Assembly: GCF_034479615.1 (NCBI RefSeq)
Contig: NZ_CP140255.1
Location: 1,488,001-1,552,000 of the forward strand
From: Vreelandella neptunia
GTDB taxonomy: Bacteria; Pseudomonadota; Gammaproteobacteria; Pseudomonadales; Halomonadaceae
Length of the DNA: 64,000 nucleotides
Reading direction: 5' to 3'
Positions 1 through 14,637 of the stretch are shown one piece after another (position 1 is the stretch's first letter; the number at the start of each line of letters is the position of its first letter). The notes below the pieces were generated by a model. It did no database searches. It saw nothing but the letters and a program-made list of their open reading frames with translations, and was not told the origin of the DNA. The position numbers were made by a program, and so were the translations under genes.

Positions 1-43
1 TGAATGCCGGTATTTTTACAGAACAATAGCTAAAAAATACGCT

Positions 44-53
44 AAACCGGTTT
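44..53. promoter_or_regulatory. Candidate LacI-family (PtxS-like) operator core
   Basis: AAACCGGTTT is a perfect 10-bp palindrome with a central CG, the layout of LacI-family operators. It is identical to the core of the Pseudomonas PtxS site as I recall it (TGAAACCGGTTTCA), but the flanking TG/CA is absent here. It lies about 160 bp upstream of the GntR gene. A PtxS-like regulator is encoded at 20534-21550, so cross-regulation is possible but unproven. I see nothing else definite in bases 1-212. Confidence 0.3.
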
Positions 54-212
54 GTTATGTAAGAATTTTGTTGAAGTATGCAGGAAATTGGCTGGCGAGG
101 GATAGGCATTCTATGCGACTAAAGATTGAAGGAATCGGCCTTTTCTTATCGCAACCACACTACCATACTAGTCATAGCAGTAGAGGCGGTCATAGACGTT
201 AATAGGATTAAT

Positions 213-944
213 ATGAAGACGAACTTGCAAGCAATGTGGCTGAGAACCAGTACCGACGTATCGGTGCGGCAGCGTCTGCATAAAGTGTTGCGGCAAGCGA
301 TCATTCGTATGGTGTTAGCGCCGGGCCAGGCGCTTTCTGAAAAAGAGATTGCGGATTTGTTTAACGTTAGTCGCCAGCCCGTGCGAGAAGCGTTTATTCG
401 CCTTTCTGAGTCAGGCTTGGTGGAAGTTCGCCCCCAGAGAGGCACCTATGTTGTGCGCATTTCGCGCCAAGCCGTGCTGGAGGCACGATTTATTCGTGAG
501 TCTCTGGAGGTAGCCATTGCTTTAGAGGCCGCTAAATGCACGCTTCCATCGAGCGTATTAATGGAGTTAAACGAGCTGATTGAGCGTCAGCGCAGCTGTA
601 TTGAGCGTCAAGATCATGACCGTTTTTTCTTTCTTGACGAGATGTTCCATCGCACCTTGGCAATCTCTACGGGGCAAACCATGGCATGGAACGTAATCGA
701 AGATGTTAAAGCGCAGTTAGATAGAGTGCGGTATTTGAGTATTCCTGATTCCACACCCATCCCCAAACTGGCAGATCAGCATCAGGCCATAGTGGATGCG
801 ATATCTGCTGGAGATACCGAGGCGGCCGAGCAGGCAATGTGTATCCATCAACGTGAAATACTTCACTCGCTACCTGAACTAGAGCGCCGCTTTCCAGAGT
901 TGTTTGAAAATGTGGGCACCAATGCTCATGCGCTATCTATATAA
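213..944 (+). CDS. GntR-family (FCD subfamily) transcriptional regulator
   Basis: A 243-residue regulator with an N-terminal winged helix-turn-helix (the region reading LSEKEIADLFNVSRQPVREA) followed by an all-helical FCD ligand-binding domain. FCD regulators such as UxuR, ExuR and LldR bind sugar acids or other carboxylates through a metal and conserved His residues. I chose ATG 213 because AGGA sits 6 bases upstream. An in-frame TTG at 126 would add 29 residues that do not resemble the family. The gene opens a same-strand block of TRAP transporter and uronate genes, so it is probably their local regulator; a palindrome at 1008-1022 is a candidate site. The specific effector cannot be read from the sequence. 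Confidence 0.85.
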   Translation: MKTNLQAMWLRTSTDVSVRQRLHKVLRQAIIRMVLAPGQALSEKEIADLFNVSRQPVREAFIRLSESGLVEVRPQRGTYVVRISRQAVLEARFIRESLEVAIALEAAKCTLPSSVLMELNELIERQRSCIERQDHDRFFFLDEMFHRTLAISTGQTMAWNVIEDVKAQLDRVRYLSIPDSTPIPKLADQHQAIVDAISAGDTEAAEQAMCIHQREILHSLPELERRFPELFENVGTNAHALSI

Positions 945-1007
945 AACCCGCTAGAGAACAACAAAAAAGCAGCATAGGCCGCATTACGAAGGATCAGCCA
1001 GAACTGG

Positions 1008-1022
1008 TTGGTAAATTATCAA
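1008..1022. promoter_or_regulatory. Candidate operator for the adjacent FCD regulator
   Basis: TTGGTAAATTATCAA reads as TTGRTAA-N-TTAYCAA, a 15-bp near-perfect palindrome with one G/T departure per half. It is 29 bp upstream of the TRAP substrate-binding protein start codon and 63 bp after the GntR gene. Position and symmetry fit a GntR/FCD operator. No binding evidence is available. Confidence 0.4.
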
Positions 1023-1051
1023 TAATAAATGAATGCCTTTAGGAGCCTGAA

Positions 1052-2011
1052 ATGAAACTCACAAAATTACTTCCTGCTGTAGCGCTGATTGTCGCAAGCC
1101 ATTCGGCTCACGCCGCTTATCAGCTTAATGTCTCAATAGCGTTGAGTCCTCAAGACCCTATTGCCCAAGCTATGGAAAGTGCAAAACAAGCAATTGCGGA
1201 GCGTTCAGAGGGAGAGCTGACCATTCAGATTTTCCCTAACAGCCAGCTTGGTTCAGACGAAGACGTGATCGAACAAATTCGTAGTGGTGCCAACATCGCT
1301 ATCTTAGTCGATGCGGGACGTTTATCGGAGTATCAACCTGAGCTGGGTATCTTGAGTGCCCCTTATTTAGTGGAAGACCATCGTGACTATAGCCAAATCA
1401 CAACATCTCCGCTTTATCTGGATTGGGTCGAGGGTCTTGCAGAATCAAGTGGGTTACGACTGCTCAACTATAACTGGTTTCAAGGGTCACGGCAGATGCT
1501 GACCCAAAATGAAGTAAACACGCCAGAGGATTTAAATGGTGTACGGGTGCGCACTATTAATTCCCCTGTATGGGTGAAAACCATTGAAGCCATGGGCGCT
1601 ACTCCGACGCCATTGCCTTGGTCAGAAGTTTACTCAGCCCTACAGCTAGGTTCGATTGATGGAGCCGAAGCACAGCTAACCGCAGCTGAAGGTCAAAATT
1701 TGCATGAAGTTATTACTCACGTGGCTCTAACCAATCACATTCATTTGATGACCGGTATTGCGACTTCCGAGCAGTGGTACCAGGCGTTACCTGAGGAGTT
1801 GCGCTCAATTCTCGATGAAGAACTGCTCAGTGCTGGCGATGCTGCTAGCCAAGCGACGTCAGACGCCCAAGCTTCGGTGCGCGAGCGAATGGAAGCGGCA
1901 GGCGTTACGTTTTCTGAGGTGGATATGGACGTATTCCGCGACCGAGTGGGCAGCGTTTATGAAGAGCTAGGTTACGACCAGTACCGTGATCAATTGCTTT
2001 CTTCAGAGTGA
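1052..2011 (+). CDS. TRAP transporter substrate-binding protein (system 1)
   Basis: A 319-residue periplasmic DctP-family protein. A Lys-containing start, hydrophobic core and SHSAHA cleavage site make a clear signal peptide of about 21 residues. The family signature is visible: LNGVRVRT, which carries the ligand carboxylate-binding Arg, followed by MGATPTPLPWSEVYSALQLGSIDGAE. It delivers an organic or sugar acid to the QM permease encoded just downstream. AGGAG lies 7 bases before ATG 1052. The neighbouring uronate genes suggest a hexuronate or aldonate ligand, but DctP ligands cannot be assigned by family alone. Confidence 0.9.
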   Translation: MKLTKLLPAVALIVASHSAHAAYQLNVSIALSPQDPIAQAMESAKQAIAERSEGELTIQIFPNSQLGSDEDVIEQIRSGANIAILVDAGRLSEYQPELGILSAPYLVEDHRDYSQITTSPLYLDWVEGLAESSGLRLLNYNWFQGSRQMLTQNEVNTPEDLNGVRVRTINSPVWVKTIEAMGATPTPLPWSEVYSALQLGSIDGAEAQLTAAEGQNLHEVITHVALTNHIHLMTGIATSEQWYQALPEELRSILDEELLSAGDAASQATSDAQASVRERMEAAGVTFSEVDMDVFRDRVGSVYEELGYDQYRDQLLSSE

Positions 2012-2108
2012 ATATCAGCCCTCTGCCTGCTAGGGCAGGGGGCTTCACAATTTTTTCTTTTGCTATTACTTAACTGTCCAAATCCCCTTTTAGGGGGAGG
2101 AACGCTGT

Positions 2109-2603
2109 ATGTGGCATTGGTACGATAAAGGTGAGGAGTGGTTGGCTATTATGCTGCTCGGTGGTACCTCTCTCACCATGTTTGTTAGCTCGACAGCTAG
2201 AGCAATAGGAAATCCTTTTGCAGGGGGCGCTGAGCTTGCGCAATTCCTGTTTATATGGACCGCTGTATTAGGTGCTGATATTACTCTGCGCCAGGGTGGG
2301 CAAGTGCGAATCGATGCTCTTGTCATTCGTTTGCCTATTAAATGGCAGCTTCTTATTACCAGTTTGTGCATTGGAATGATGATGCTCTTCCTGGCCCTTT
2401 TAATCTGGTATGGCTTTGTTTTAGCGGCTTCAAACTGGCAGCGCCCCATGGGAGTGGCAGGACTTAGCTATGGATATATCACACTTGCGCTTCCTGTCGG
2501 AGCATTATTAATGATGCTTTCGCTAGTGCGGCGATTGTTCACAAATGGCGTTATCGGGAGTTTGGTTGCTGACGATGACGAGATTGTGGAGGAGGCGCTA
2601 TGA
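2109..2603 (+). CDS. TRAP transporter small permease subunit (system 1)
   Basis: A 164-residue DctQ-family membrane protein with four predicted hydrophobic helices (starting near residues 13, 46, 83 and 120). It carries the usual GADITLRQGGQVRIDAL stretch between helices 2 and 3. It pairs with the large permease, whose ATG overlaps its TGA (ATGA at 2600-2603), showing translational coupling. GGGGGAGGA lies upstream of ATG 2109. Na+-dependent uptake is the family mechanism, which suits a halophile. Confidence 0.88.
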   Translation: MWHWYDKGEEWLAIMLLGGTSLTMFVSSTARAIGNPFAGGAELAQFLFIWTAVLGADITLRQGGQVRIDALVIRLPIKWQLLITSLCIGMMMLFLALLIWYGFVLAASNWQRPMGVAGLSYGYITLALPVGALLMMLSLVRRLFTNGVIGSLVADDDEIVEEAL

Positions 2604-3889
2604 CGGCAGCTTTGTTATTAGGATTCGGCCTGCTTCTTATGGCGATAGGTATGCCCGTTGCCTTTGCTATCGGGATTGCGGGTTTCTCCTATTTTTTATT
2701 GCCCGAAACATTCTTACCGACGAGCATTGCCGTCCAACGCATAGTGTCTTCGACGCAATCATTTCCACTATTAGCTGTGCCGTTGTTTATTTTTATCGGC
2801 CATCTAATGAACGCCAGCGGTATTACTCCCCGCTTGGTGCACCTTTCTACGCTTTTAGCGGGATGGATGAGCGGAGGTTTAGCCCAGGCAAGTATCGTGC
2901 TGAGCACCTTAATGGGCGGTGTTTCTGGTTCTGCCGTGGCCGATGCCGCAATGCAATCCAGGGTGCTGGGAAAAAGCATGATTAAGGGAGGCTACTCAGC
3001 GGGGTTTACTGGTGCGGTGCTCTCTATTGGGGGGCTAATCACTGCAACCATTCCGCCAAGTATCGGCTTGATTCTCTATGGCTATCTTGGCGAAGTTTCG
3101 ATAGGACGGCTGTTTATCGCAGGCCTCGTGCCGGGCTTTTTGCTAATGGTAGCGCTGATGGTGACTACTTACATAATGGCCAAACGGCGGGGCTATCAGC
3201 CGGTAAGAGAGCGGCTACCCACGGGAAGGGAGGTGCTTAAGGCCCTACGTAGCAGTATCTGGGCAATTCTCTTCCCCGTATGGCTCTTGGTGGGAATTCG
3301 CTATGGACTCTTTACCCCCTCTGAAGCGGGTGCTTTTGCGGTTGCTTATGCCTTGTTGGTGGGCTGCGTAATACACCGAGTAATGGGTGTTAAAGAAATT
3401 CTTAATGCCATGCGTGCCAGCGTAAGAGATATTGGCATGATAATGCTGATTATTATGTTCTCAGGCATTATTGGTTATGTCGTGTCTTTTGAAAGAGTAC
3501 CGCAAACAATAGCAGAGCTAACGCTTGGCGTATTCTCTAGCCACATAACACTGTTGCTGGCAGTGGCTGTAATACTTGTTTTTCTAGGCATGCTGCTAGA
3601 AGCTACTGTTGTTGTCATGCTGTTGACCCCCATCTTGGTGCCCGTTATTAAAGCTGCAGGTGTTGATCCGGTTCATTTTGGACTGTTAATGATGACGCTG
3701 GTTACGTTCGGCGGTATGACGCCTCCTGTGGGGATTTCAATGTATACCGTATGCGGAATATTGCGTTGCTCTTTTTACGAGTATAGCCGTGAGTTACTGC
3801 CTTTTGCCGTTGCTGTATTTGTGGTTGTGCTGGGTATTCTCTTCTTCCCCAATGTAGTGCTATTTTTGCCTAATTTACTGCTGGGCTAA
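2600..3889 (+). CDS. TRAP transporter large permease subunit (system 1)
   Basis: A 429-residue DctM-family protein with about a dozen membrane segments. Family signatures include GMPVAFAIGIAGF at the start, the GGVSGSAVADAA loop near residue 105 and the GGMTPPVGISMY segment near residue 375. It forms the transport core with the small subunit that overlaps its start. It is the last intact gene before the uxaC remnant, so this transporter probably served the same glucuronate-type pathway before that deletion. Confidence 0.9.
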   Translation: MTAALLLGFGLLLMAIGMPVAFAIGIAGFSYFLLPETFLPTSIAVQRIVSSTQSFPLLAVPLFIFIGHLMNASGITPRLVHLSTLLAGWMSGGLAQASIVLSTLMGGVSGSAVADAAMQSRVLGKSMIKGGYSAGFTGAVLSIGGLITATIPPSIGLILYGYLGEVSIGRLFIAGLVPGFLLMVALMVTTYIMAKRRGYQPVRERLPTGREVLKALRSSIWAILFPVWLLVGIRYGLFTPSEAGAFAVAYALLVGCVIHRVMGVKEILNAMRASVRDIGMIMLIIMFSGIIGYVVSFERVPQTIAELTLGVFSSHITLLLAVAVILVFLGMLLEATVVVMLLTPILVPVIKAAGVDPVHFGLLMMTLVTFGGMTPPVGISMYTVCGILRCSFYEYSRELLPFAVAVFVVVLGILFFPNVVLFLPNLLLG

Positions 3890-3922
3890 ATCGACCTATG
3901 ACACTCTCATAATTAAGGAGCG

Positions 3923-4106
3923 ATGATGAAGGTTGATAATAATGTTGAGTTAATGGGTAAAGACCGCCTGTTAGGAAATGAAGTAGCCCAGCGGCTTTAT
4001 CATAAGTACACAGCTATTATGCCGGTTTTTGATGATGGCTCTAGTTGGCGGGATGATGCGGGCGGCGTGTTACCACAATGTGCAGCGCTACCTATTTGAG
4101 CGTTAA
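3923..4106 (+). pseudogene. uxaC: uxaC (glucuronate isomerase) remnant with large internal deletion
   Basis: Downstream of an intact AAGGAG, ATG 3923 opens a frame whose first ~36 codons match the UxaC N terminus: RLLGNEVAQRLYHKY followed by PVFD aligns with LL..EFARRLYHDY..PIFD in E. coli UxaC. Right after this, in a different frame (about 4038-4106), the sequence reads LVGGMMRAACYHNVQRYLFER and stops, matching the UxaC C terminus (LLGEMVKNICFNNARDYF). Roughly 410 codons that should lie between them are missing and the join is out of frame. The 58-codon frame that results ends at 4099 and lacks all the metal-binding and catalytic parts. UxaC normally is about 470 residues. Confidence 0.85.
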
Positions 4107-4136
4107 CTTCTTTTTACTTCTTGTGATGGATTTATC

Positions 4137-5348
4137 ATGATCATTAGCGATGCATATTTAATCGTAACGTCCCCGGGCCGAAACTTTGTCACGCTGAAAA
4201 TCGTTACCGAATCAGGAGTGTATGGAATCGGCGACGCCACTTTAAACGGCCGTGAACTGTCGGTGGTCGCTTACCTGGAAGAGCATGTATTACCAACACT
4301 AATTGGGCGTGATGCTAGCCGTATTGAAGATATCTGGCACTACCTTTATCGCGGCGCTTACTGGCGGCGAGGCCCTGTAACGATGACGGCTATTGCGGCA
4401 GTCGATGTAGCACTATGGGATATCAAAGCGAAGGTTGCGGGTATGCCGCTGTACCAATTGCTAGGTGGTAAGAGCCGTGACCGAGTGATGGTGTATGGCC
4501 ATGCCACCGGGAGAGATATTGAAGCATGCCTGGAAGAGGTCGCTCGTCATGTAGATGAGGGGTACAAAGCCGTGCGCGTTCAGGCGGGTGTGCCAGGCAT
4601 TGCCAGTATTTATGGGGTCGCCAAAAAAGATGGCGAGCCGTATGAGCCAGCCGATGCCGAGCTGCCCGCGGAGCACGTGTGGAGTACCAGCAAATACTTA
4701 AACCATGTACCCAAGTTGTTTGCCGCCGTGCGTGAGCGTTTTGGCGATGATTTACACGTGCTACATGATGTTCATCACCGCCTGACGCCCATTGAAGCCG
4801 CCCGTTTAGGCAAAGAAGTGGAGCCCTATCATTTATTTTGGCTCGAAGACTGCGTACCGGCTGAGAATCAGGAGGCGTTTGGTCTTATTCGCCAGCACAC
4901 CACCACGCCATTGGCGGTGGGCGAAGTCTTTAACAGCCTGTATGACGCCAAAGCGCTAATTGAAAATCAGTGGATCGACTATATCCGCGCCACCCTAACC
5001 CATGCCGGGGGGATCACCCATGTACGCCGCATCGCCGATTTAGCGGGTCTTTATCACGTGCGTACCGGCTTCCACGGGCCAACGGATCTTTCGCCGGTTT
5101 GTCTGGGTGCGGCGATTCACTTTGACACCTGGGTACCCAATTTCGGCATCCAGGAGTACATGCCGCATACCAGCGCTACTGACGAGGTGTTCCCCCACGA
5201 TTATCGCTTTGAAGACGGGCATTTCATTGTCGGTGAAAAGCCGGGGCATGGTGTTGATATCGATGAACAGTTAGCCAAACAGTACCCATATAAGCGTGCC
5301 AGCCTGCCGGTAAATCGGCTGGAAGACGGCACTCTGTGGCATTGGTAA
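4137..5348 (+). CDS. manD: D-mannonate dehydratase family enzyme (ManD subgroup, enolase superfamily)
   Basis: A 403-residue ManD/RspA protein, essentially the family length. Using the known ManD structures as a guide (offset +1), I find Arg147 and Tyr159 of the catalytic pair, Mg2+ ligands Asp211, Glu237 and Glu263, His213, and the closing Trp403. Canonical members dehydrate D-mannonate to KDG. The residue after the conserved FHG is Pro315; I recall that in this subgroup Pro versus Ala at this place separates low-efficiency or inactive enzymes from efficient D-mannonate dehydratases, so the real substrate is uncertain. It starts 30 bp after the uxaC wreck and is followed 13 bp later by an RspB-like dehydrogenase, as in E. 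coli rspAB. Confidence 0.88.
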
Positions 5349-5361
5349 GGAGATTAGGTCG

Positions 5362-6390
5362 ATGAAAGCATTCCAGGTGAAGGCGCCTCACGACTACCAG
5401 GTAGCGGATGTTGAGCCACCCAAGGTGGCCGCTGGTGAAGCACTGGTGCGTGTGGCATTTGCCGGTATTTGCGGCTCGGATATGCATATTATCCATGGCG
5501 ACAACGCCTTTGTGCGTTTTCCGCGCATCACCGGTCATGAGTTTGCCGGGGTAGTGGAAGCGGTGGGGGAAGGCGTGCTTGGCCTCGCCGTCGGGGATCG
5601 CGTGTGCGTTGACCCCGTTATCAGCTGTGGTGAGTGCTATCCCTGCCGGATTGGCCGTCCTAACGTGTGCAGTTCGCTTGAAGTGATCGGCGTGCATCGC
5701 GATGGTGGTTTTGAAGAGTTTGTTGCTGTCCCCGCGGCTAACGTGCACCACCTACCCGAGCATATTGGGCTAGACGCGGCTGCCCTGGTTGAGCCGTACA
5801 CCATTGCCGCCAACGTGCTTGATCGCATGCAGCCGCACCCGGGTGATCGACTAATGATTCTGGGCGCCGGCGTTATTGGTCTGACGATCCTGCAGATGGC
5901 CCTGGCTAAGGGTATCGAAGAGGTCATCGTCACTGATGTTATTAATGAGCGATTAGCGGCGGCAAAACAGCTTGGGGCAACGCAGGTATTGAATAGCCGC
6001 GAGCAGGATGTGGAAAAAGAGGTGCTTGCCTTAACCCAGGGTGAAGGCGTACCGCTGATTGCCGATGCGGCCTGCGTGCCTGCGCTGTTACCGCAAATGC
6101 TGCGTTTAGCGTCGCCAGCAGGACGCATCGGCCTGCTGGGCTTTAGCGTTCAGCCCAGTGACCTTGTACAGCTAGAAGTGATTAAGAAAGAGCTGACCCT
6201 GGTGGGGTCGCGGCTCAATAACCGTAAGTTTCCGGAGGTGCTTGAGCTAATGGCAAGTGGGCAGTTGGATCCGTTGGCGTTAGTTAGCCATAGGTTGCCG
6301 CTAAGCGATATGCCCAGCGCCATTGACATGCTTGATCACCGACCAGAAGAGGCCCGTAAGGTACTGATTCAAATCAGTGCTGAAGGGTAA
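5362..6390 (+). CDS. Zinc-dependent sugar-acid/polyol dehydrogenase (RspB / L-gulonate 5-dehydrogenase type)
   Basis: A 342-residue medium-chain dehydrogenase. The catalytic zinc site is Cys37 (GICGSD), His59 and Glu60 (TGHE). The structural zinc site is Cys89, Cys92, Cys95 and Cys103. The nucleotide-binding GAGVIG lies near residue 167. E. coli RspB and L-idonate/L-gulonate 5-dehydrogenases are the nearest types. Oxidation of L-gulonate at C5 gives D-fructuronate, which UxuB (9389-10852) and ManD could carry on to KDG. It sits between manD and the second TRAP system, in one transcription direction with short gaps. Threonine dehydrogenase-like activity is the main alternative. Confidence 0.75.
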   Translation: MKAFQVKAPHDYQVADVEPPKVAAGEALVRVAFAGICGSDMHIIHGDNAFVRFPRITGHEFAGVVEAVGEGVLGLAVGDRVCVDPVISCGECYPCRIGRPNVCSSLEVIGVHRDGGFEEFVAVPAANVHHLPEHIGLDAAALVEPYTIAANVLDRMQPHPGDRLMILGAGVIGLTILQMALAKGIEEVIVTDVINERLAAAKQLGATQVLNSREQDVEKEVLALTQGEGVPLIADAACVPALLPQMLRLASPAGRIGLLGFSVQPSDLVQLEVIKKELTLVGSRLNNRKFPEVLELMASGQLDPLALVSHRLPLSDMPSAIDMLDHRPEEARKVLIQISAEG

Positions 6391-6460: not shown

Positions 6461-7429
6461 ATGATCAAACAACTTATTACCAGCGCTGTTATTGGGGCCG
6501 CCATGCTAGGCAGCCACTCATTAATGGCGGCAGATTTCACCCTGCGTTTTGGCCATTTAGCCAATGAGCAGAATATATGGCACCAGGCCGCCGAGAAGTT
6601 CAAAGAGGAAGTCGAAGCAAATTCTGACGGGCAGATTGAAGTACGCCTCTACCCCAGTGAGCAGTTAGGAAATGAAATGGATATCATTAATGGTATTCAG
6701 CTGGGTACCGCGGATATGACCATTACCGGTGAAAGCTTACAGAACTGGGCGCCTAAAGCCGCGATGATGGCCGTACCCTATGCCTTCCGAGATTCCGAAC
6801 ATTTGCATGAGGTAGTTAATGGGGAGATCGGTGCTGAAATTGAAGAGCAAATCATCGAACGCACAAAGCTTGTGCCGCTGGCATGGTTTGAACGGGGCCC
6901 TCGGGAACTGACGTCTAACCGGCCGATTCGCAGCCCGGAAGAGCTTGATGGGCTGCGTTTACGCGTACCAAACGTACCGTTATTCGTGGATACCTGGCAG
7001 GCAATGGGGGCTCGCCCCACGCCGATGGCTTTTAGCGAAGTGTTTACCGCGCTTCAACAGAATGTTCTTGACGGCCAGGAAAACCCGCTCAGCTTGATCG
7101 AAAGTGCCAGTTTCAATGAGGTGCAGGATTACGTCAATATGACTAGTCATGTGCGTAGCTGGATCTATGTCGTTATTGGGCGTAATCAGTTGGAAAGTAT
7201 GCCTGAAGAGCTCCAAAAGGTAGTTCGCGATGCTGCTCAGACGATGCAGGCATATGAAGCGGAGCTGTTCACTGAAGACCAGGCACGCCTTGAGCAAGCG
7301 CTACAGGAACGTGGTATGGAGTTCGTGGAAGTAGACGTCGACGCCTTTGCAGAGAAAGCTCGTCCCGCTGTCCTTGACGCCTTAACCGAAGAGCAGCGTG
7401 AACTCTTTGACGCTATCCAAGACCTTTAA
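6461..7429 (+). CDS. TRAP transporter substrate-binding protein (system 2)
   Basis: A 322-residue DctP-family protein with a signal peptide ending at SLMA/ADF (about 23 residues). The signature region LDGLRLRVPNVPLFVDTWQA is followed by MGARPTPMAFSEVFTALQQ and VLDGQENP, the form typical of DctP proteins for C4-dicarboxylates and sugar acids. TAGGAGAAAG precedes ATG 6461. It is only distantly like system 1, whose matching loop reads DGAEAQ, so the two probably bind different ligands. Its place between the RspB-like dehydrogenase and uxuB suggests an aldonate or hexuronate, for example L-gulonate. Confidence 0.9.
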   Translation: MIKQLITSAVIGAAMLGSHSLMAADFTLRFGHLANEQNIWHQAAEKFKEEVEANSDGQIEVRLYPSEQLGNEMDIINGIQLGTADMTITGESLQNWAPKAAMMAVPYAFRDSEHLHEVVNGEIGAEIEEQIIERTKLVPLAWFERGPRELTSNRPIRSPEELDGLRLRVPNVPLFVDTWQAMGARPTPMAFSEVFTALQQNVLDGQENPLSLIESASFNEVQDYVNMTSHVRSWIYVVIGRNQLESMPEELQKVVRDAAQTMQAYEAELFTEDQARLEQALQERGMEFVEVDVDAFAEKARPAVLDALTEEQRELFDAIQDL

Positions 7430-7523
7430 GGTCGGATTTGTGGTCAATTGATAATGACGATGGGCTGGCACACGCCAGTCCATTTTCTAACGATACAAGC
7501 AGCTTGCCCATGAGGATACGGTT

Positions 7524-8102
7524 ATGAACTCGGATCAAAAAACGCTTGAAAAGGAAGCGTTGGAGAGTCTGGATTCAATGTCGGCGGTGCCTAAATTTAA
7601 AGGTTCCATTGGGCGCATGATTGGCTGGGTGGACACGTGCTTTCTGACCTTGGCCGTTACTGCGCTGATTGCGATTGCCGCCACGGTACTGCTGCAAATT
7701 TGTTCGCGGCTGTTTTTGCCGTTTTCGATAGCCTGGACCGAAGAACTCTCACGTTATCTATTTATTTATATGGTGGCACTATCTGTTGGTGTGGTGCTGC
7801 GACAGAACCGAAACATCAGCGTTGAGCTTTTCCATCACCTGCTGGGGCCACGCGTACAGGCGGCGGTTCAAGTGCTGCTCTGTGGACTGATTGGCTTGTT
7901 TGCCTTTTTGGTGCTGCCTTACGCTTGGCAGTATGCGCAAAACGGCGCTTGGCAAACCTCGCCAACGCTGCATGTTCCCATGCTGTATATCTTTTTCTCA
8001 ACGGTAGTCACCTTTGCGCTTCTCCTGGTTTACAGCTTGCTGGGGTGTCTTGAGGGAATTATCGCAATGTGTCGCTCCTCTGCCTCCCTTCAGGAGTCGT
8101 AA
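7524..8102 (+). CDS. TRAP transporter small permease subunit (system 2)
   Basis: A 192-residue DctQ-family protein with a ~35-residue hydrophilic N-terminal tail and then four hydrophobic helices. The conserved FSIAWTEELSRYLFIYM segment and VVLRQNRNISVELF loop are present. ATG 7524 has GAGGA upstream. The large subunit starts 2 bp after its TAA, so the two are made together. The ~95 bp before this gene includes AT-poor hairpin-like sequence (CTGGCACACGCCAGTCC), which may lower QM expression relative to the binding protein, as is common in TRAP operons. Confidence 0.88.
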   Translation: MNSDQKTLEKEALESLDSMSAVPKFKGSIGRMIGWVDTCFLTLAVTALIAIAATVLLQICSRLFLPFSIAWTEELSRYLFIYMVALSVGVVLRQNRNISVELFHHLLGPRVQAAVQVLLCGLIGLFAFLVLPYAWQYAQNGAWQTSPTLHVPMLYIFFSTVVTFALLLVYSLLGCLEGIIAMCRSSASLQES

Positions 8103-8104
8103 GC

Positions 8105-9385
8105 ATGGAAGTTATTATCCTCTTTAGCGTTTTCTTGGTTTTGCTCTTGGTGGGAATGCCCATTGCGTTTGCGTTGGGGCTAGCCTCGCTCTCCTATCTG
8201 CTGCTTGAAGGTATTTCATTAACCATCGTTCCGCAGCGCATGTATGCGGGTATCGACACCTTCGTGCTGCTGTGTATCCCCGGCTTTGTGTTGGCCGGCA
8301 ATTTAATGAATGTGGGCAATATCACTGATCATATTGTGCGTTTCTCAAACGCTCTGTTAGGTCACATTCGCGGCGGTCTTGGCTTGGCCAATGTGGCAGG
8401 GTCGATGATTTTCGGTGGTATCTCCGGCACGGCGGTTGCGGATTCAGCCAGTATCGGTTCGGTGATGATTCCTGGTATGGCTCGCTCAGGCTATGACAAG
8501 CCGTTTGCCGCTGCAGTGACCGCCGCTTCGTCAACCGTTGGGCCGATTATACCGCCCAGTGTTCCCATGATCATCGCCGGATCTCTCAGCGGTATTTCAG
8601 TCGGGCGTATGTTCCTGGCAGGCGCAGTACCGGGGCTGCTAATGGGCCTAGCCATGATGGTTACGGTGTATATCCTGGCCGTTCGGCGTGGGTATCCCAA
8701 AGAGCAGCGGGTACCATTTTTGCAGCTGCTGCGCGAAGCCAAAACGGCCTTCTGGGCACTGCTGATGACCGTGATTATTCTCTACGGCATTATTGGCGGG
8801 TTCTTTACCCCCACCGAAGCGTCTATTGTGGCTTGTCTCTATGCCTTGGTTGTCGGCATGTATGTGTATAAAGGCCTGTCGTGGAAAAAGCTTCCGGCGA
8901 TTTTGTCAGATACTGTATTAACCTCGTCGGCACTATTGTTGATGGTAGGCTTGGCGAACCTGTTTGGCTGGATACTCACCAGTGAGCAGATTCCCCAAAT
9001 GATCGCTGCACTTATTCTTTCCATTAGCGATAACCCGCTAATCGTTCTGCTGATTCTTAACTTGATTCTGCTATTTGTCGGCGCTTTTATGGAAACCATC
9101 GCCGCGCTGATTATTCTATTCCCAGCCTTGGTGGGAGTCGCCACTGGCGTGGGTGTCGATCCGGTTCACTTTGCGGTAATCGCGGTGTTGAACCTGATGA
9201 TTGGGCTGACAACCCCTCCGGTGGGGGTGTGCCTATTCGTGGTGGCGGGGATTGGCAAGCTACCTATGTTGGCGGTGGCAAAAGCCATCGTGCCTTTTTT
9301 GCTGTGCAACTTGGCGGTACTGTTGTTGGTGACCTATGTCCCCGCGATTTCGCTTTGGTTGCCTAACTTGCTAATGGGAGAGTAG
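8105..9385 (+). CDS. TRAP transporter large permease subunit (system 2)
   Basis: A 426-residue DctM-family permease. I take ATG 8105 (MEVIILFSVFLVLL), preceded by CAGGAG, rather than an upstream in-frame GTG that overlaps the small-subunit gene. Signatures are GMPIAFALGLAS, GGISGTAVADSASIGSVMIP and LTTPPVGVCLFVV. About twelve membrane segments are predicted. The stop is followed directly by uxuB, so transporter and reductase are probably cotranscribed. Confidence 0.9.
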   Translation: MEVIILFSVFLVLLLVGMPIAFALGLASLSYLLLEGISLTIVPQRMYAGIDTFVLLCIPGFVLAGNLMNVGNITDHIVRFSNALLGHIRGGLGLANVAGSMIFGGISGTAVADSASIGSVMIPGMARSGYDKPFAAAVTAASSTVGPIIPPSVPMIIAGSLSGISVGRMFLAGAVPGLLMGLAMMVTVYILAVRRGYPKEQRVPFLQLLREAKTAFWALLMTVIILYGIIGGFFTPTEASIVACLYALVVGMYVYKGLSWKKLPAILSDTVLTSSALLLMVGLANLFGWILTSEQIPQMIAALILSISDNPLIVLLILNLILLFVGAFMETIAALIILFPALVGVATGVGVDPVHFAVIAVLNLMIGLTTPPVGVCLFVVAGIGKLPMLAVAKAIVPFLLCNLAVLLLVTYVPAISLWLPNLLMGE

Positions 9386-9388
9386 TTG

Positions 9389-10852
9389 ATGATGGCGCCA
9401 AAGCTGATTGAAGCATCGCCAAGAAGTGGCCAGATCGGGATTGTTCATCTGGGGTTGGGCGCTTTCCATCGCGCCCACCAAGCGGTCTATTTAGAGCGTT
9501 ATCGCCAACGCAGCGGTGACGGTGAGTGGGGAGTATGCAGTGCGAATTTACGCTCTAGCGTTGGTTTAGTCGACGGCTTACGTGCGGCAGGGCATCGCTA
9601 CCATGTGGCGGAGTACGCCGATAGCAAAAATATCACGCTGCGCGAAATTGGCGTGATTGAAGAGGCGCTCTTTTCAGGCCGTGATGCTGACGGTCATTGG
9701 AGTCGTGACCGTGAGGCGTTGCTGGCGCGAATGGCCTCTGTGGATACCCGTATCGTGACGTTAACGGTGACCGAGAAGGGCTACTTTTTAAACCCCGCCA
9801 GCGGTGAGCTAAGAGTCGATGACCCCATGATCATTGGCGATATTGCTTCCCCCCAGCAGCCGCGAACTGCCCCTGGACTATTGGTGGAAGCGTTAGCTCA
9901 GCGGCGTGATGCTGGTCTTGCCCCCTTTACCGTGCTCTCTTGCGACAATATGCCGGATAACGGCAAGCGAACACGCCAAGCGGTGGTGCAACTGGCCGAG
10001 CATCGAGACGCAGAATTGGCCAGTTGGATTGCCAGTGAAGTGGCGTTTCCCTGCAGCATGGTAGATCGCATCGTCCCTGCGATGACCGACGCCGATTTTG
10101 AGCGCTTAGCGTCACTGGGCGTTACCGATCCAAACGCCGTGGTATGCGAAGCGTTCACACAGTGGGTGGTTGAAGATAACTTCCCCCAGGGACGACCCAA
10201 CTGGGAGGCTGAGGGGGTTGAGATGGTGGCAGATGTGGCGCCGTTTGAAACCATGAAACTGCGCATGCTCAACGGTAGCCACTCCTTGCTTGCCTATCTT
10301 GGTGCGCTTGCAGGTATTGAAACGGTTTATGAAGGCATCAATAACGCCGAGCTTCGTGCGCTGTTGCGTCGTTATATGATTGAAGAGGCGGCGCCTACGC
10401 TTGAGATGCCCGAGGGAATCGATTTAGACGCTTATGCTGACTCGCTGCTAGAACGCTTTGCCAATGACAGTTTGCGTCATCGTCTGCAGCAAATCGCTAT
10501 GGATGGCAGCCAAAAACTCCCACAGCGCTGGCTCTCTGGCGCGCTGGAACGTAGTACCGCTGGTCAATCATCGCCCTGCGTGGCGTTGGGGATAGCGGCC
10601 TGGATTCGCTATACCGCGGGTCAAGACTTACAAGGCAATAGTTACCCCGTGGATGATCCGCTAACCAAGCGCTTTGCTGAGCTACATCAGAGGCATGGTA
10701 GCGATCCCAGCGCGCTGGTAGCGGCCTATTTAGCCATGGACGATGTGGTGCCGAGTGAACTGGCAGCGTATAAGGGATTCGTTCAGGCGGTGCTGGTGGC
10801 GTATCAAGCACTTACCCTGGGCGGGGTGAGTGAAGTGCTAAAAAATGCCTAA
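9389..10852 (+). CDS. uxuB: D-fructuronate reductase (mannitol dehydrogenase family)
   Basis: A 487-residue long-chain polyol dehydrogenase. The N-terminal nucleotide-binding region contains IVHLGLGAFHRAHQAVYLE, then VTLTVTEKGYFL. The catalytic Lys motif KLRMLNGSHSLLAYLG lies near residue 290. UxuB reduces D-fructuronate to D-mannonate with NADH. Mannitol or D-arabinitol dehydrogenase activity cannot be excluded from sequence alone, but the ManD and TRAP neighbours favour UxuB. ATG 9389 comes 3 bp after the permease stop with GGGAG upstream; a second ATG follows directly. Confidence 0.83.
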   Translation: MMAPKLIEASPRSGQIGIVHLGLGAFHRAHQAVYLERYRQRSGDGEWGVCSANLRSSVGLVDGLRAAGHRYHVAEYADSKNITLREIGVIEEALFSGRDADGHWSRDREALLARMASVDTRIVTLTVTEKGYFLNPASGELRVDDPMIIGDIASPQQPRTAPGLLVEALAQRRDAGLAPFTVLSCDNMPDNGKRTRQAVVQLAEHRDAELASWIASEVAFPCSMVDRIVPAMTDADFERLASLGVTDPNAVVCEAFTQWVVEDNFPQGRPNWEAEGVEMVADVAPFETMKLRMLNGSHSLLAYLGALAGIETVYEGINNAELRALLRRYMIEEAAPTLEMPEGIDLDAYADSLLERFANDSLRHRLQQIAMDGSQKLPQRWLSGALERSTAGQSSPCVALGIAAWIRYTAGQDLQGNSYPVDDPLTKRFAELHQRHGSDPSALVAAYLAMDDVVPSELAAYKGFVQAVLVAYQALTLGGVSEVLKNA

Positions 10853-10893
10853 TATATCTTTTTAATTCGTTTTAAGAACGAGGAAATGGGCGA

Positions 10894-12102
10894 TTGCAAA
10901 CGACGTCGTTAGCAGTGGGTAAGGGAAGTGTCGAACTGGCGTCCAATGTGCTGTCCGGAGTTAGCCTTCCCGCAGCGGTCGTGTTTGAAAGGCCACTGGC
11001 TCATAACGTAGCGTGGATGCAGCGCTTCGCCGCAGCTCACGGGGCCCACTTGGCGCCCCATGGCAAAACCACCATGACGCCCGCGCTTTTCCATCGACAG
11101 CTCCAGGCAGGGGCGTGGGGTATCACACTTGCCACTGCACCCCAGTGTCGTGCTGCCTTCGCCAATGGCGTTACCCGAATATTGATGGCGAACCAACTGG
11201 TGGGTCAGGCAAATATGGCCATTATCGCCAGTCTGATCGAACAGGGCGCTGCGTTTTATTGTGTGGTCGATAGCCATGAGAATGCGCGCCAGCTCGGGCG
11301 CTTTTTTGCTGAGCGGAGCTTGACGTTATCGGTGCTTATTGAGATAGGCGTGGAGGGTGGCCGCTGTGGCTGCCGCAATCAGCAGCAAATTCTTTCGCTG
11401 GCGGAGGTGATTGCTAGTGAACCAGCACTTTCTCTGGTGGGCCTGGAGGGCTATGAGGGTGTGGTTCACGGGGATAATCCCGAATCTGGTATTCGTACCT
11501 ATGCTAAATACCTGGTGGATGTTGCCGTAGAGCTCGAAGCTGCTGGACGCTTTGCTGAAGAGAACCCGATTGTCACCGCGTCAGGTTCCGCCTGGTATGA
11601 TGTGATTGCGGAGGCCTTTCAGGGCGCACCGCTTCAGGGAAGATTTACCCCCGTGCTACGCCCAGGTTGCTACATCGTCCACGACCATGGGCTTTATCGT
11701 GAAGCGCAATCAGCGGTATTAGGCCGCCGGCCGGATTTGCAGCAGGGGCTTGAGCCGGCCCTGGAAGTCTTTGCCCAGGTGCAGTCGCTTCCCGAACCTG
11801 GGCTTGCCATTGTAGCGCTAGGTAAGCGTGATATTGGTCATGACCAGCTACCTATTGCACTGCGTCGTTTCAGGGAAGGGGGAAGCCCCTCGCAGCCATT
11901 GCCGGTGACTGGTTGGGAAGTGACGAAAATTATGGATCAGCACACCTTTGTGGGCCTTCCGGAAGGGGCTCAAGATGTCGAGGTCGGTGATATTGTCGCC
12001 TTTGGCGCCTCTCATCCTTGTTTAACCTTCGATAAATGGCGCCAGATATTGTTAGTGGATGATCAACTAAACGTTAAAGAGCGTATGGCGACCTACTTTT
12101 AG
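10894..12102 (+). CDS. Fold-type III PLP enzyme (D-serine dehydratase-like / amino acid deaminase family)
   Basis: A 402-residue protein with an N-terminal alanine-racemase-like barrel and a C-terminal D-serine dehydratase-like domain. The PLP lysine is Lys58 in APHGKTT. The C-terminal zinc signature GASHPCLTFDKW supplies the His and Cys ligands known from eukaryotic-type D-serine dehydratase and D-threonine aldolase. Only a TTG start (10894) fits, with GAGGAA about 9 bases before it; the nearby ATG 10886 is out of frame. It follows uxuB by 41 bp. Substrate unknown: a D-hydroxyamino acid is the family default, but in this setting an aminated sugar acid (for example D-glucosaminate, whose dehydration-deamination yields KDG) would fit. 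That is a hypothesis. Confidence 0.75.
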   Translation: MQTTSLAVGKGSVELASNVLSGVSLPAAVVFERPLAHNVAWMQRFAAAHGAHLAPHGKTTMTPALFHRQLQAGAWGITLATAPQCRAAFANGVTRILMANQLVGQANMAIIASLIEQGAAFYCVVDSHENARQLGRFFAERSLTLSVLIEIGVEGGRCGCRNQQQILSLAEVIASEPALSLVGLEGYEGVVHGDNPESGIRTYAKYLVDVAVELEAAGRFAEENPIVTASGSAWYDVIAEAFQGAPLQGRFTPVLRPGCYIVHDHGLYREAQSAVLGRRPDLQQGLEPALEVFAQVQSLPEPGLAIVALGKRDIGHDQLPIALRRFREGGSPSQPLPVTGWEVTKIMDQHTFVGLPEGAQDVEVGDIVAFGASHPCLTFDKWRQILLVDDQLNVKERMATYF

Positions 12103-12140
12103 CGCCCTGTTATTGAGAAAACCGTTATAGAGAACATCAT

Positions 12141-12935
12141 TTAGCTCGTCGTACCTGCTGGTAGGCGCCCACCAATAGCCAGTGTCAGGGCGTCTGCCAG
12201 CTCCCCTAGCTGTTCCCGGCAGCGGTCGATGCTGGGAACTTCCCGATGCATCGCTTCTGGAATCAGCGTGAGATAAGGGATGGTGATAACGGCTTCGATA
12301 ACGTCATGAACCCCAAAGACAGGGAAGCTGATATTGGTTAACCCTTGGACTTGAGGGCTTGGCCCCACGTGGTAGCCCTGCTGGCGAATCGGATCAAATA
12401 GCGCCCGCGTTCGGTCAACCTCTTGTTGCGTTGCATCGCTGGCGGCGAGAATGCGCTCCCGGCGTGGCTCATCCAGAAAGGCCAGCATGACGGCCCCAGA
12501 ACCGGAGCCGCATATATCGATTTTGGCCCCCAGGCGCAGCCCAAAGCCCATCTTGTCGGGGTTTTCGTACTGGGCCACTACCAATAGATGGCCAGGACGA
12601 GCAACACTAAGATGACACGACTGGGAGATTTCATGGCACAGCTCTTCCATGCGCGGTAGTGCGGCCTGTACTAACCGCTTGGTGGGCGGGAAGCGGTGGG
12701 CCATCTCAAACATCTTTAGCGTTAGCTGATAGCGGCTACCGCTATCATCCATGCTGACGTAGCCACGATCTCGCAGCACCATCAGCATGCGGTACATCTC
12801 ATTGGTTTTACGGCCGATCTGTTCGGCAATCGCTTGGGTGCTTAGCGGCTGGGGAGATTGGGCAAGCAGCTCCAAAATATCCAACCCTTTCTCTAAGGCA
12901 GGGGCGTGGTACTGCGTTTCAGCCTTCTCCTTCAT
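12141..12935 (-). CDS. IclR-family transcriptional regulator (KdgR-like)
   Basis: A 264-residue protein with an N-terminal winged HTH (LEKGLDILELLAQ, then TQAIAEQIGRKTNEMYRML) and a C-terminal IclR effector domain of GAF-like fold. KdgR, the IclR-family repressor of pectin and uronate genes in enterobacteria, binds KDG-type compounds. The gene lies downstream of kduI-kduD on the same strand, 61 bp after kduD, so it is probably the last gene of the operon and autoregulated through it. A KdgR-box-like palindrome at 17516-17544, in front of the operon, is its likely target. The block converges with the + strand genes, only 38 bp from their end. Confidence 0.85.
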   Translation of the reverse strand: MKEKAETQYHAPALEKGLDILELLAQSPQPLSTQAIAEQIGRKTNEMYRMLMVLRDRGYVSMDDSGSRYQLTLKMFEMAHRFPPTKRLVQAALPRMEELCHEISQSCHLSVARPGHLLVVAQYENPDKMGFGLRLGAKIDICGSGSGAVMLAFLDEPRRERILAASDATQQEVDRTRALFDPIRQQGYHVGPSPQVQGLTNISFPVFGVHDVIEAVITIPYLTLIPEAMHREVPSIDRCREQLGELADALTLAIGGRLPAGTTS

Positions 12936-12996
12936 TCAAGCTCCCTTACGTGATTGCCAATCGCTCGTTGATCGTGGCGTTAACCAAAACGCTTGG

Positions 12997-13749
12997 TTAG
13001 CGTGCCAGCCAGCCGCCGTCTACCGCCAGGGTATGTCCATGCACGTAGCGGGCGGCATCGGAGCATAAGAATATCACAGCGCCGGCTAAGTCTTCTGGCG
13101 TGCCCCAGCGTCCGGCGGGGATTCGGCCAAGAATTTCAGCATGGCGCTGGGGATCGTCGCGCAATGCTTGGGTGTTGTCGGTGGCCATATAGCCAGGGGC
13201 GATGCCATTAACGTTGATGTCATGGCCCGCCCACTCATTGGCGAGCAGGCGCGTTAAACCGAGAATACCGCTTTTGCTGGCGGTGTAGGAGGGCACTCGA
13301 ATGCCGCCTTGAAACGACAGTAATGAAGCGATATTGACGATCTTGCCCGGCGCTTTGCGCTCGATAAGGTGTTTGGCAACCTGCTGCGCGAGAAAGAAAG
13401 CGGCTTTCAAATTAACGTCAATGACGTCATCCCAATCTTGCTCTGAAAATTCCACGGCTGCCGCCCGACGAATAATCCCGGCATTGTTGACCAGAATATC
13501 CACCTTGCCCGCTTTCGCGATCGCCTGTGAGACAATCTCGCCAGGCGCTTGGCTGCCCAGCTCCGCCGTAATGTCGTAAAACTGGCGCCCTAGGGCCTCG
13601 ACCTGCTGGCGGGTGTCATCAGCAGCGCTTCGGTTGACCCCCACGATATCGGCACCCGCCTGTGCCAGTGCAATGGCAATTCCCTGGCCCAGCCCTTTGT
13701 TGCAACCCGTCACCATGGCAACTTGGCCGTTCAGCGAAAATAGCTTCAT
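12997..13749 (-). CDS. kduD: 2-deoxy-D-gluconate 3-dehydrogenase / 2,5-diketo-3-deoxygluconate reductase
   Basis: A 250-residue short-chain dehydrogenase. The coenzyme motif TGCNKGLGQG is at residues 14-23, NNAG near 90, and the catalytic YTASK near 155. KduD reduces the 2,5-diketo-3-deoxygluconate made by KduI (2-dehydro-3-deoxy-D-gluconate 5-dehydrogenase), giving KDG. It is 24 bp downstream of kduI in the same direction. A 7-bp stem (TAACCAA/TTGGTTA, 12981-12999) overlaps its stop codon but has no T-run. Length and order match kduI-kduD of pectin/alginate degraders. Confidence 0.9.
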   Translation of the reverse strand: MKLFSLNGQVAMVTGCNKGLGQGIAIALAQAGADIVGVNRSAADDTRQQVEALGRQFYDITAELGSQAPGEIVSQAIAKAGKVDILVNNAGIIRRAAAVEFSEQDWDDVIDVNLKAAFFLAQQVAKHLIERKAPGKIVNIASLLSFQGGIRVPSYTASKSGILGLTRLLANEWAGHDINVNGIAPGYMATDNTQALRDDPQRHAEILGRIPAGRWGTPEDLAGAVIFLCSDAARYVHGHTLAVDGGWLAR

Positions 13750-13773
13750 TGGTCACTCTCCCTGGGTAGTGGT

Positions 13774-14604
13774 TTAGCGCAGCTCTTTAGAAGCGATAAA
13801 GTCCATATCATCGTAGGTCAGGTTTTCACCGCACATACCCCAAATAAAGGTGTAGCGGCGAGTGCCAAAGCCACAGTGAATCGACCAGCTGGGGTGAATC
13901 ACAGCTTGTTCGTTGGCAACCACGATATGCCGGGTCTCTTGGGGTTCGCCACACAGGTGGAACACCACATCGTCTTCACTCAGGTCAAAGTAGAAGTACA
14001 CTTCCATGCGCCGTTCGTGGGTATGACAGGGCATGGTGTTCCACATACTACCGGGCTCTAACTGGGTAAGCCCCATGGAGAGCTGGCAGGTATCCAGTAC
14101 ATCGGTATGCAGGTACTTATTGATGGTACGCACATTGCCGGTTTCAGGGTCACCAAGGGTGGTGGGCGAGGCATCTTCCGGGCGGATATGGCGAAGCTGG
14201 TAACGTACATGGGCTGGCGTTGAGTTGATATAAAAGCGCGCAGGCTTGGTCGCATCGAGGCTCTCAAAGCTGACCTCACGGCTCTCTTTGGGAATATACA
14301 GGCCGTGATGGGTGCCTAGCTCGACCGTTTCACCGTCGACAGTAATGCGCCCGGGCGCGCCAATGTTAATAACGCCCATTTCCCGCCGCTCAAGAAAATA
14401 GTCAACGCCAAGCTCTTTGCCACCGCTCAGGGTAAGCGGCGAATCAGTGGGTACCGCGCCACCAACAATAATGCGGTCAACGTGGCTGTAGGTGAGCGAT
14501 AGTTGGCCTGGCACCATAATTTTGGTGACCAGCATTTTGTCACGCAGGCCCTGGGTATCGAGGGTTTTAAAATGATCGCTATGAAGCGCTTGGCGAATAT
14601 CCAT
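13774..14604 (-). CDS. kduI: 5-dehydro-4-deoxy-D-glucuronate isomerase
   Basis: A 276-residue cupin isomerase converting 5-keto-4-deoxyuronate (DKI), which arises from unsaturated uronates released by polysaccharide lyases, into 2,5-diketo-3-deoxygluconate. The zinc ligands are in register with E. coli KduI: His194 and His196 (PCHTHERRM), Glu201 and His243 (SIHCGFG). It implies that the cell takes up or makes unsaturated uronates from pectin, ulvan or glycosaminoglycans, although no lyase is present in this window. It is placed between the TRAP genes and kduD. Confidence 0.95.
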
Positions 14605-14637
14605 ATGAGTTTCCTTTAATGGTAAAAGTCAATGGGC

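Follow-up and report, generated by a model that had tools for sequence, protein, structure and literature searches.

Positions 3923-4106 (+) of the window (the whole stretch of 64,000 nucleotides of Vreelandella neptunia DNA that was analysed) hold a relic of uxaC, the gene for glucuronate isomerase, between the large permease gene of a TRAP transporter (2600-3889) and manD (4137-5348). The relic very likely represents an old pseudogene, a reading to which we give a probability of roughly 0.87: the ancestor or donor from which this operon allele comes would have lost the body of its local gene through an internal deletion of about 1.2 kb, both ends would then have drifted without constraint, with a further 40 bp lost in three relatives, and the loss would have been tolerable because another uxaC, only distantly related, stands with uxuA in a glucuronide cluster of the genome. 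This account draws on the relic itself, on the full gene found at the same place in relatives, on the second uxaC, and on the derived bases and loss of constraint common to the relics. The operon in which the relic lies is laid out as follows.

210-944, +: GntR-family regulator (family matches, all below their cut-offs)
1052-3889, +: TRAP transporter 1, comprising substrate-binding protein, small permease and large permease (small permease by a weak match only, E=2.3e-6)
3915-3920, +: AAGGAG, a ribosome-binding-like site before the relic (read from the sequence and aligned with relatives)
3923-4036, +: uxaC N-terminal arm, about residues 1-38 (E=3.8e-7 to local-type UxaC; 89% DNA identity to the intact relative G075)
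3923-4099, +: accidental 58-residue ORF crossing the junction (47, 47 and 19 residues in relatives)
4037-4042, +: junction of the deletion, placed to within about 6 bp (a net 1,241 bp missing relative to five of the six intact relatives)
4043-4106, +: uxaC C-terminal arm in a frame other than that of the N-terminal arm, comprising the last 20 codons or so and the native stop, 4104-4106 (translation, DNA match and alignment)
4137-5348, +: manD, D-mannonate dehydratase (NF043051, 743 bits against a cut-off of 550; solved D-mannonate dehydratases at E of about 1e-239)
5362-6390, +: RspB-type zinc dehydrogenase, candidate L-gulonate 5-dehydrogenase by predicted substrate (PRK10083, 385.6 bits against 376)
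6461-9385, +: TRAP transporter 2 (binding protein and large permease by family matches; small permease, 7524-8102, by ORF and place only)
9386-10852, +: UxuB-like fructuronate reductase of the mannitol dehydrogenase family (best match fructuronate reductase at 475.8 bits, below the cut-off of 603)

Structure and Identity of the Relic

Translation of the 58-residue ORF gives a first stretch of about 38 residues that matches UxaC, and the tail VGGMMRAACYHNVQRYLFER, which ends at the native stop, is read in a different frame. A six-frame genome search aligned the N-terminal arm with residues 1-38 of the G075 enzyme at 58% identity. Taken alone, the N-terminal piece matches the Pfam UxaC family weakly (E=0.029), and the C-terminal piece alone yields no Pfam UxaC match, only a chance-like match to ADSL_C (E=0.0046). 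At the relic there is no full-length UxaC open frame above the family cut-off, the best piece reaching 13.6 bits against 25. At the DNA level, window 3700-4036 and 4043-4400 match G075 at 89% and 91%, with about 1.25 kb containing the full gene between them; a second BLAST setting places the junction gap at 4029-4042. The distance between fixed anchors is 79 nt in the window genome and 1,320 nt in five of the six intact relatives (1,319 in G074), and the resulting net loss of 1,241 bp shifts the frame.

Both arms thus correspond to the two ends of the glucuronate isomerase UxaC (PF02614, NF002794) and lie where relatives carry the intact gene, as expected of a uxaC pseudogene. Unlike that enzyme, however, the relic is without some 414 of 473 codons and cannot yield such a protein. 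The first-pass annotation of this DNA, which had described uxaC as reduced to its two ends by the loss of about 1.2-1.3 kb, with the ribosome site and the neighbouring genes intact, is borne out on each of these points. Its description of the deletion as clean is only partly apt: simple as the junction itself is, substitutions are numerous in both arms, and another 40 bp are gone in three relatives. A by-eye look at the aligned arms for repeats at the deletion ends gave none that could be named, because decay blurs the junction.

Intact Genes at the Same Locus

Full uxaC genes occupy the place between the TRAP permease and manD in six of the 82 genus genomes (G075, G074, G066, G054, G053 and G011), among 13 with any UxaC match. 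The G075 protein, representing this local type in full length, scores 584 bits against a cut-off of 387 (NF002794). The uxaC frame is unbroken in five of the six; in G074 an assembly error is the best account of the break, since rpoB and gyrB are also broken in that genome. More generally, the loci of G030 (L053, AP019416.1) and G074 (L056) contain numerous frameshifts, in genes of the operon or in housekeeping genes, that are likely sequencing errors, so that gene losses called there call for caution; given their broken rpoB or gyrB, these frameshifts were taken as assembly noise and both genomes were kept in the counts.

The same arrangement extends beyond the genus. When the G075 protein was compared with 250 evenly drawn genomes of the family, 35 matched, and 30 loci were listed, of which 25 from other genera (L131-L155) were inspected, the remaining five belonging to the genus itself. 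The local type (75-82% identical) accounts for 22 of these 25 and another type (52-55%) for three; at the 22 local-type loci a TRAP large permease gene always precedes uxaC, and ManD follows it in 20. Gene order and flanking genes are thus the same as in the window, the difference being that uxaC is a relic there; the RspB-like gene after manD also occurs in some loci of other genera and is therefore no difference in itself. Given that TRAP-uxaC-manD is the usual order in other genera, a full uxaC at this place is most likely the ancestral condition. Both the presence of the full gene in six genus genomes and its presence in other genera uphold the earlier claim of an internal deletion in a once-complete uxaC, and the proposed comparison with related genomes found the gene where it had been anticipated.

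Age and Loss of Constraint

The relic is found at this locus in four of the 82 genus genomes, with at most six candidate places scored per genome, so that more divergent relics could be missed: the window genome (G000), Halomonas campaniensis SK03 (G010), Halomonas olivaria TYRC17 (G030, AP019416.1), now Vreelandella at NCBI, and G059. The last three relics are 40 bp shorter than that of the window, lacking 1,281 rather than 1,241 bp. Seven of 138 aligned columns carry a base common to the four relics and present in none of the six intact genes; six of the seven change an amino acid, each at a residue invariant across the intact genes, and a tree of the aligned arms splits relics from intact genes with a support of 100. 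Expressed as mean dN over mean dS, dN/dS is about 0.97 for the six relic pairs, in which dS is low, against 0.06 for the 15 intact pairs; the pairs are not independent, and the arms are short (138 nt aligned, 117 nt used here, one inserted base in G059 being passed over to restore its register). Coding constraint, judged on these 117 nt and on the differing ORFs, has been lost, and the relics fit the unconstrained decay of one old allele.

These observations bear directly on other ways of reading the locus. A recent loss confined to the window lineage, with the pathway deprived of glucuronate isomerase, is what the first-pass annotation had envisaged, and both uxaC ends and the ribosome site are indeed still recognisable; yet the arms drift without constraint, the relic recurs in three more genomes, and a second intact uxaC is present, so that this reading is highly improbable and the word "recent" does not survive a relic decaying in four species. 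Scarcely more credible is a short ORF kept for function, for instance because it encodes a small peptide or couples the translation of manD. The start codon and AAGGAG are kept in the window genome, and a fused frame of 47 residues runs to the native uxaC stop in two relatives, but the ORFs of the four species measure 58, 47, 47 and 19 residues and end 37, 30, 29 and 115 nt before the manD start, and dN/dS is near 1. Relatives carry the gene and the relic ORF is not conserved, whereas a conserved short ORF shared by relatives, or the absence of uxaC here from all of them, would have counted against a deletion. Least probable of all is an assembly artefact at the junction: two compared assemblies (G030 and G074) are error-prone and nothing of the kind is specific to the window genome, which consists of one contig at 99.99% completeness, and separate public records carry the relic at the same place.

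Mosaic History of the Operon

A single deletion is not proved, given that the relics are of two types that stand apart in the species tree. That tree, built from rpoB (12 genomes) and gyrB (11 genomes; 13 overall), joins G000 with G075 (support 100) and groups G010, G030 and G059 (95), then with G066 (99); G074 and G053 each have one housekeeping gene absent or partial (rpoB partial in G074), and G030 is without gyrB. The gene could accordingly have been inactivated once by a small, unseen lesion, or become dispensable twice, with its body deleted separately in the G000 lineage and in the ancestor of the other three. Both the placement of each relic type with an intact relative (G075 and G066) and the deletion endpoints, which differ on both sides, speak for such a history, but the relics share the seven derived columns, six of them amino-acid changes at invariant residues, an AU test on their arms, comparing two trees only, rejects the one species-tree topology considered (p 8e-6), and the larger deletion encloses the smaller, as expected from a later loss of 40 bp. 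Two independent deletions are therefore unlikely, though considerably less so than the readings discussed above.

The operon itself is a mosaic. Compared over window 1-5250 and upstream with loci L052-L055 and L057, positions 600-3450 and 4050-5250 are about 89-99% identical to the G010 group against 82-93% to G075, positions 3600-3900 are nearer G075 (93%) than the G010 group (86%), and positions 1-450 are nearest G066. The sequence 2.5-3.75 kb upstream of the window follows the species tree; nearer the operon, the closer match of G000 to G075 ends at about 2.25 kb upstream. The four relic genomes are set apart in trees of the TRAP binding-protein and small-permease genes (100), of the first part of the large permease (91) and of manD (81); the end of the large permease gene, by contrast, places G000 beside G075 (63). 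Given that the operon trees conflict with the species tree, the relic allele may have crossed between lineages by recombination; alternatively, the deletion may be the older state, with the gene recovered later in G075 and G066. A fuller scenario, in which an operon allele with a dead uxaC passed between species by recombination and the loss thereby spread horizontally, the second cluster having made the local isomerase dispensable and the two loci sharing one UxuB, is put forward tentatively, its chances being a little short of even.

A Second uxaC and the Glucuronide Cluster

The window genome, a single contig of 4,952,479 bp, carries one other, intact uxaC at 904,660-906,069, about 586 kb from the relic. 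Its product scores 644.8 bits, above the family cut-off that no other copy in this genome passes, is assigned to glucuronate isomerase NF002794 (600.6 bits against 387), and is 49% identical to the local type of G075. Its neighbours include uxuA at 914 kb, about 8 kb away, together with a TRAP transporter and a GH31-like gene; below-cut-off matches add a UxuR-like regulator and a GH2 gene that resembles beta-glucuronidase and probably begins ahead of the stretch read. The search for a further copy thus runs against the claim that the deletion removes glucuronate isomerase from the pathway. Two genes of the mannitol dehydrogenase family are present in the genome, both outside the distant cluster; one is the UxuB-like gene of the window, and the other, at 1,137,701, adjoins a frame that we take to be xylulokinase. 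The UxuB-like enzyme of the window probably also serves fructuronate produced by the distant UxaC.

Among ten related genomes, the second uxaC is present in all four with the relic and in three of six with an intact local gene, a difference that is not significant (exact p about 0.17); one of those without it, G074, is 74% complete. The association is compatible with loss after redundancy, on numbers too small for proof.

Of the seven genomes with the second glucuronide cluster, six have uxuA near it (frameshifted in G030), and it was not found in G053. Loci L060 (G011) and L058 (G054) carry, after UxuB in the operon, a uxuA about 52% identical to that of the window genome. A third type of uxaC cluster, with uxaC, UxuB, GH31 and TRAP genes and with uxuA in two of three stretches, stands no more than about 20 kb away from the manD locus in L067 (G005), L068 (G063) and L069 (G012). 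Finally, L108 contains at 10189-14629, near the second uronate cluster, a glucarate dehydratase-like gene (714 bits, below the cut-off of 829) followed by a putative tripartite transporter set.

The Remaining Operon and L-Gulonate

The genes left beside the relic fit an L-gulonate route. L-gulonate would be oxidised to D-fructuronate by the RspB-like dehydrogenase (best solved relative RspB, 4ilk), reduced to D-mannonate by the UxuB-like enzyme and dehydrated to 2-keto-3-deoxygluconate by ManD, without UxaC. Dehydrogenase, fructuronate reductase (below its cut-off), mannonate dehydratase and TRAP genes all occur together in the operon, as in known L-gulonate gene sets. The statement that the deletion leaves transporter, ManD and UxuB is accurate as to the genes present, but it overlooked this set. 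Experiments in Haemophilus influenzae tested a dehydrogenase-UxuB-UxuA route for L-gulonate in which UxuA replaces ManD (PMC5788505), and an L-gulonate locus has been predicted for two Halomonas genomes following work on Chromohalobacter salexigens (PMC5507952). The GulPQM-GulD-UxuB-UxuA system of Haemophilus influenzae and the loci of Chromohalobacter salexigens and Halomonas HL-48 and HL-93 share with the window operon a dehydrogenase, a fructuronate reductase, a mannonate dehydratase and a TRAP transporter; the window operon differs in its two TRAP transporters, the uxaC relic, ManD replacing UxuA, and a substrate that is predicted.

Thirty-three genus genomes have a manD match without the uxaC locus, and in the best 20 of these manD lies between a GntR gene and an RspB-like gene with no uxaC (20 of 20 loci). 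Given that the operon most likely serves the L-gulonate route, and that manD loci of this kind do without the gene, UxaC would not be needed here. A shorter version of the operon, with UxuB directly after manD and without the RspB-like dehydrogenase and the second TRAP transporter, occurs in L054 (G059), L056 (G074), L058 (G054) and L059 (G053).

Implications

The relic is real but is an ordinary pseudogene, the product of ordinary gene loss; titles and abstract openings in the literature searched contain no report of it. Given that the deletion is old, is common to relatives and is accompanied by another complete uxaC, the locus represents a gene relic rather than a broken pathway. The metabolic prediction is corrected accordingly: the strain should still isomerise glucuronate because a complete uxaC lies elsewhere in its genome. 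More broadly, the intact gene, the relic and the shorter relic form a small natural series of an operon losing one enzyme beside a redundant cluster, and they hint at a possible passage of gene-loss alleles from one species to another.
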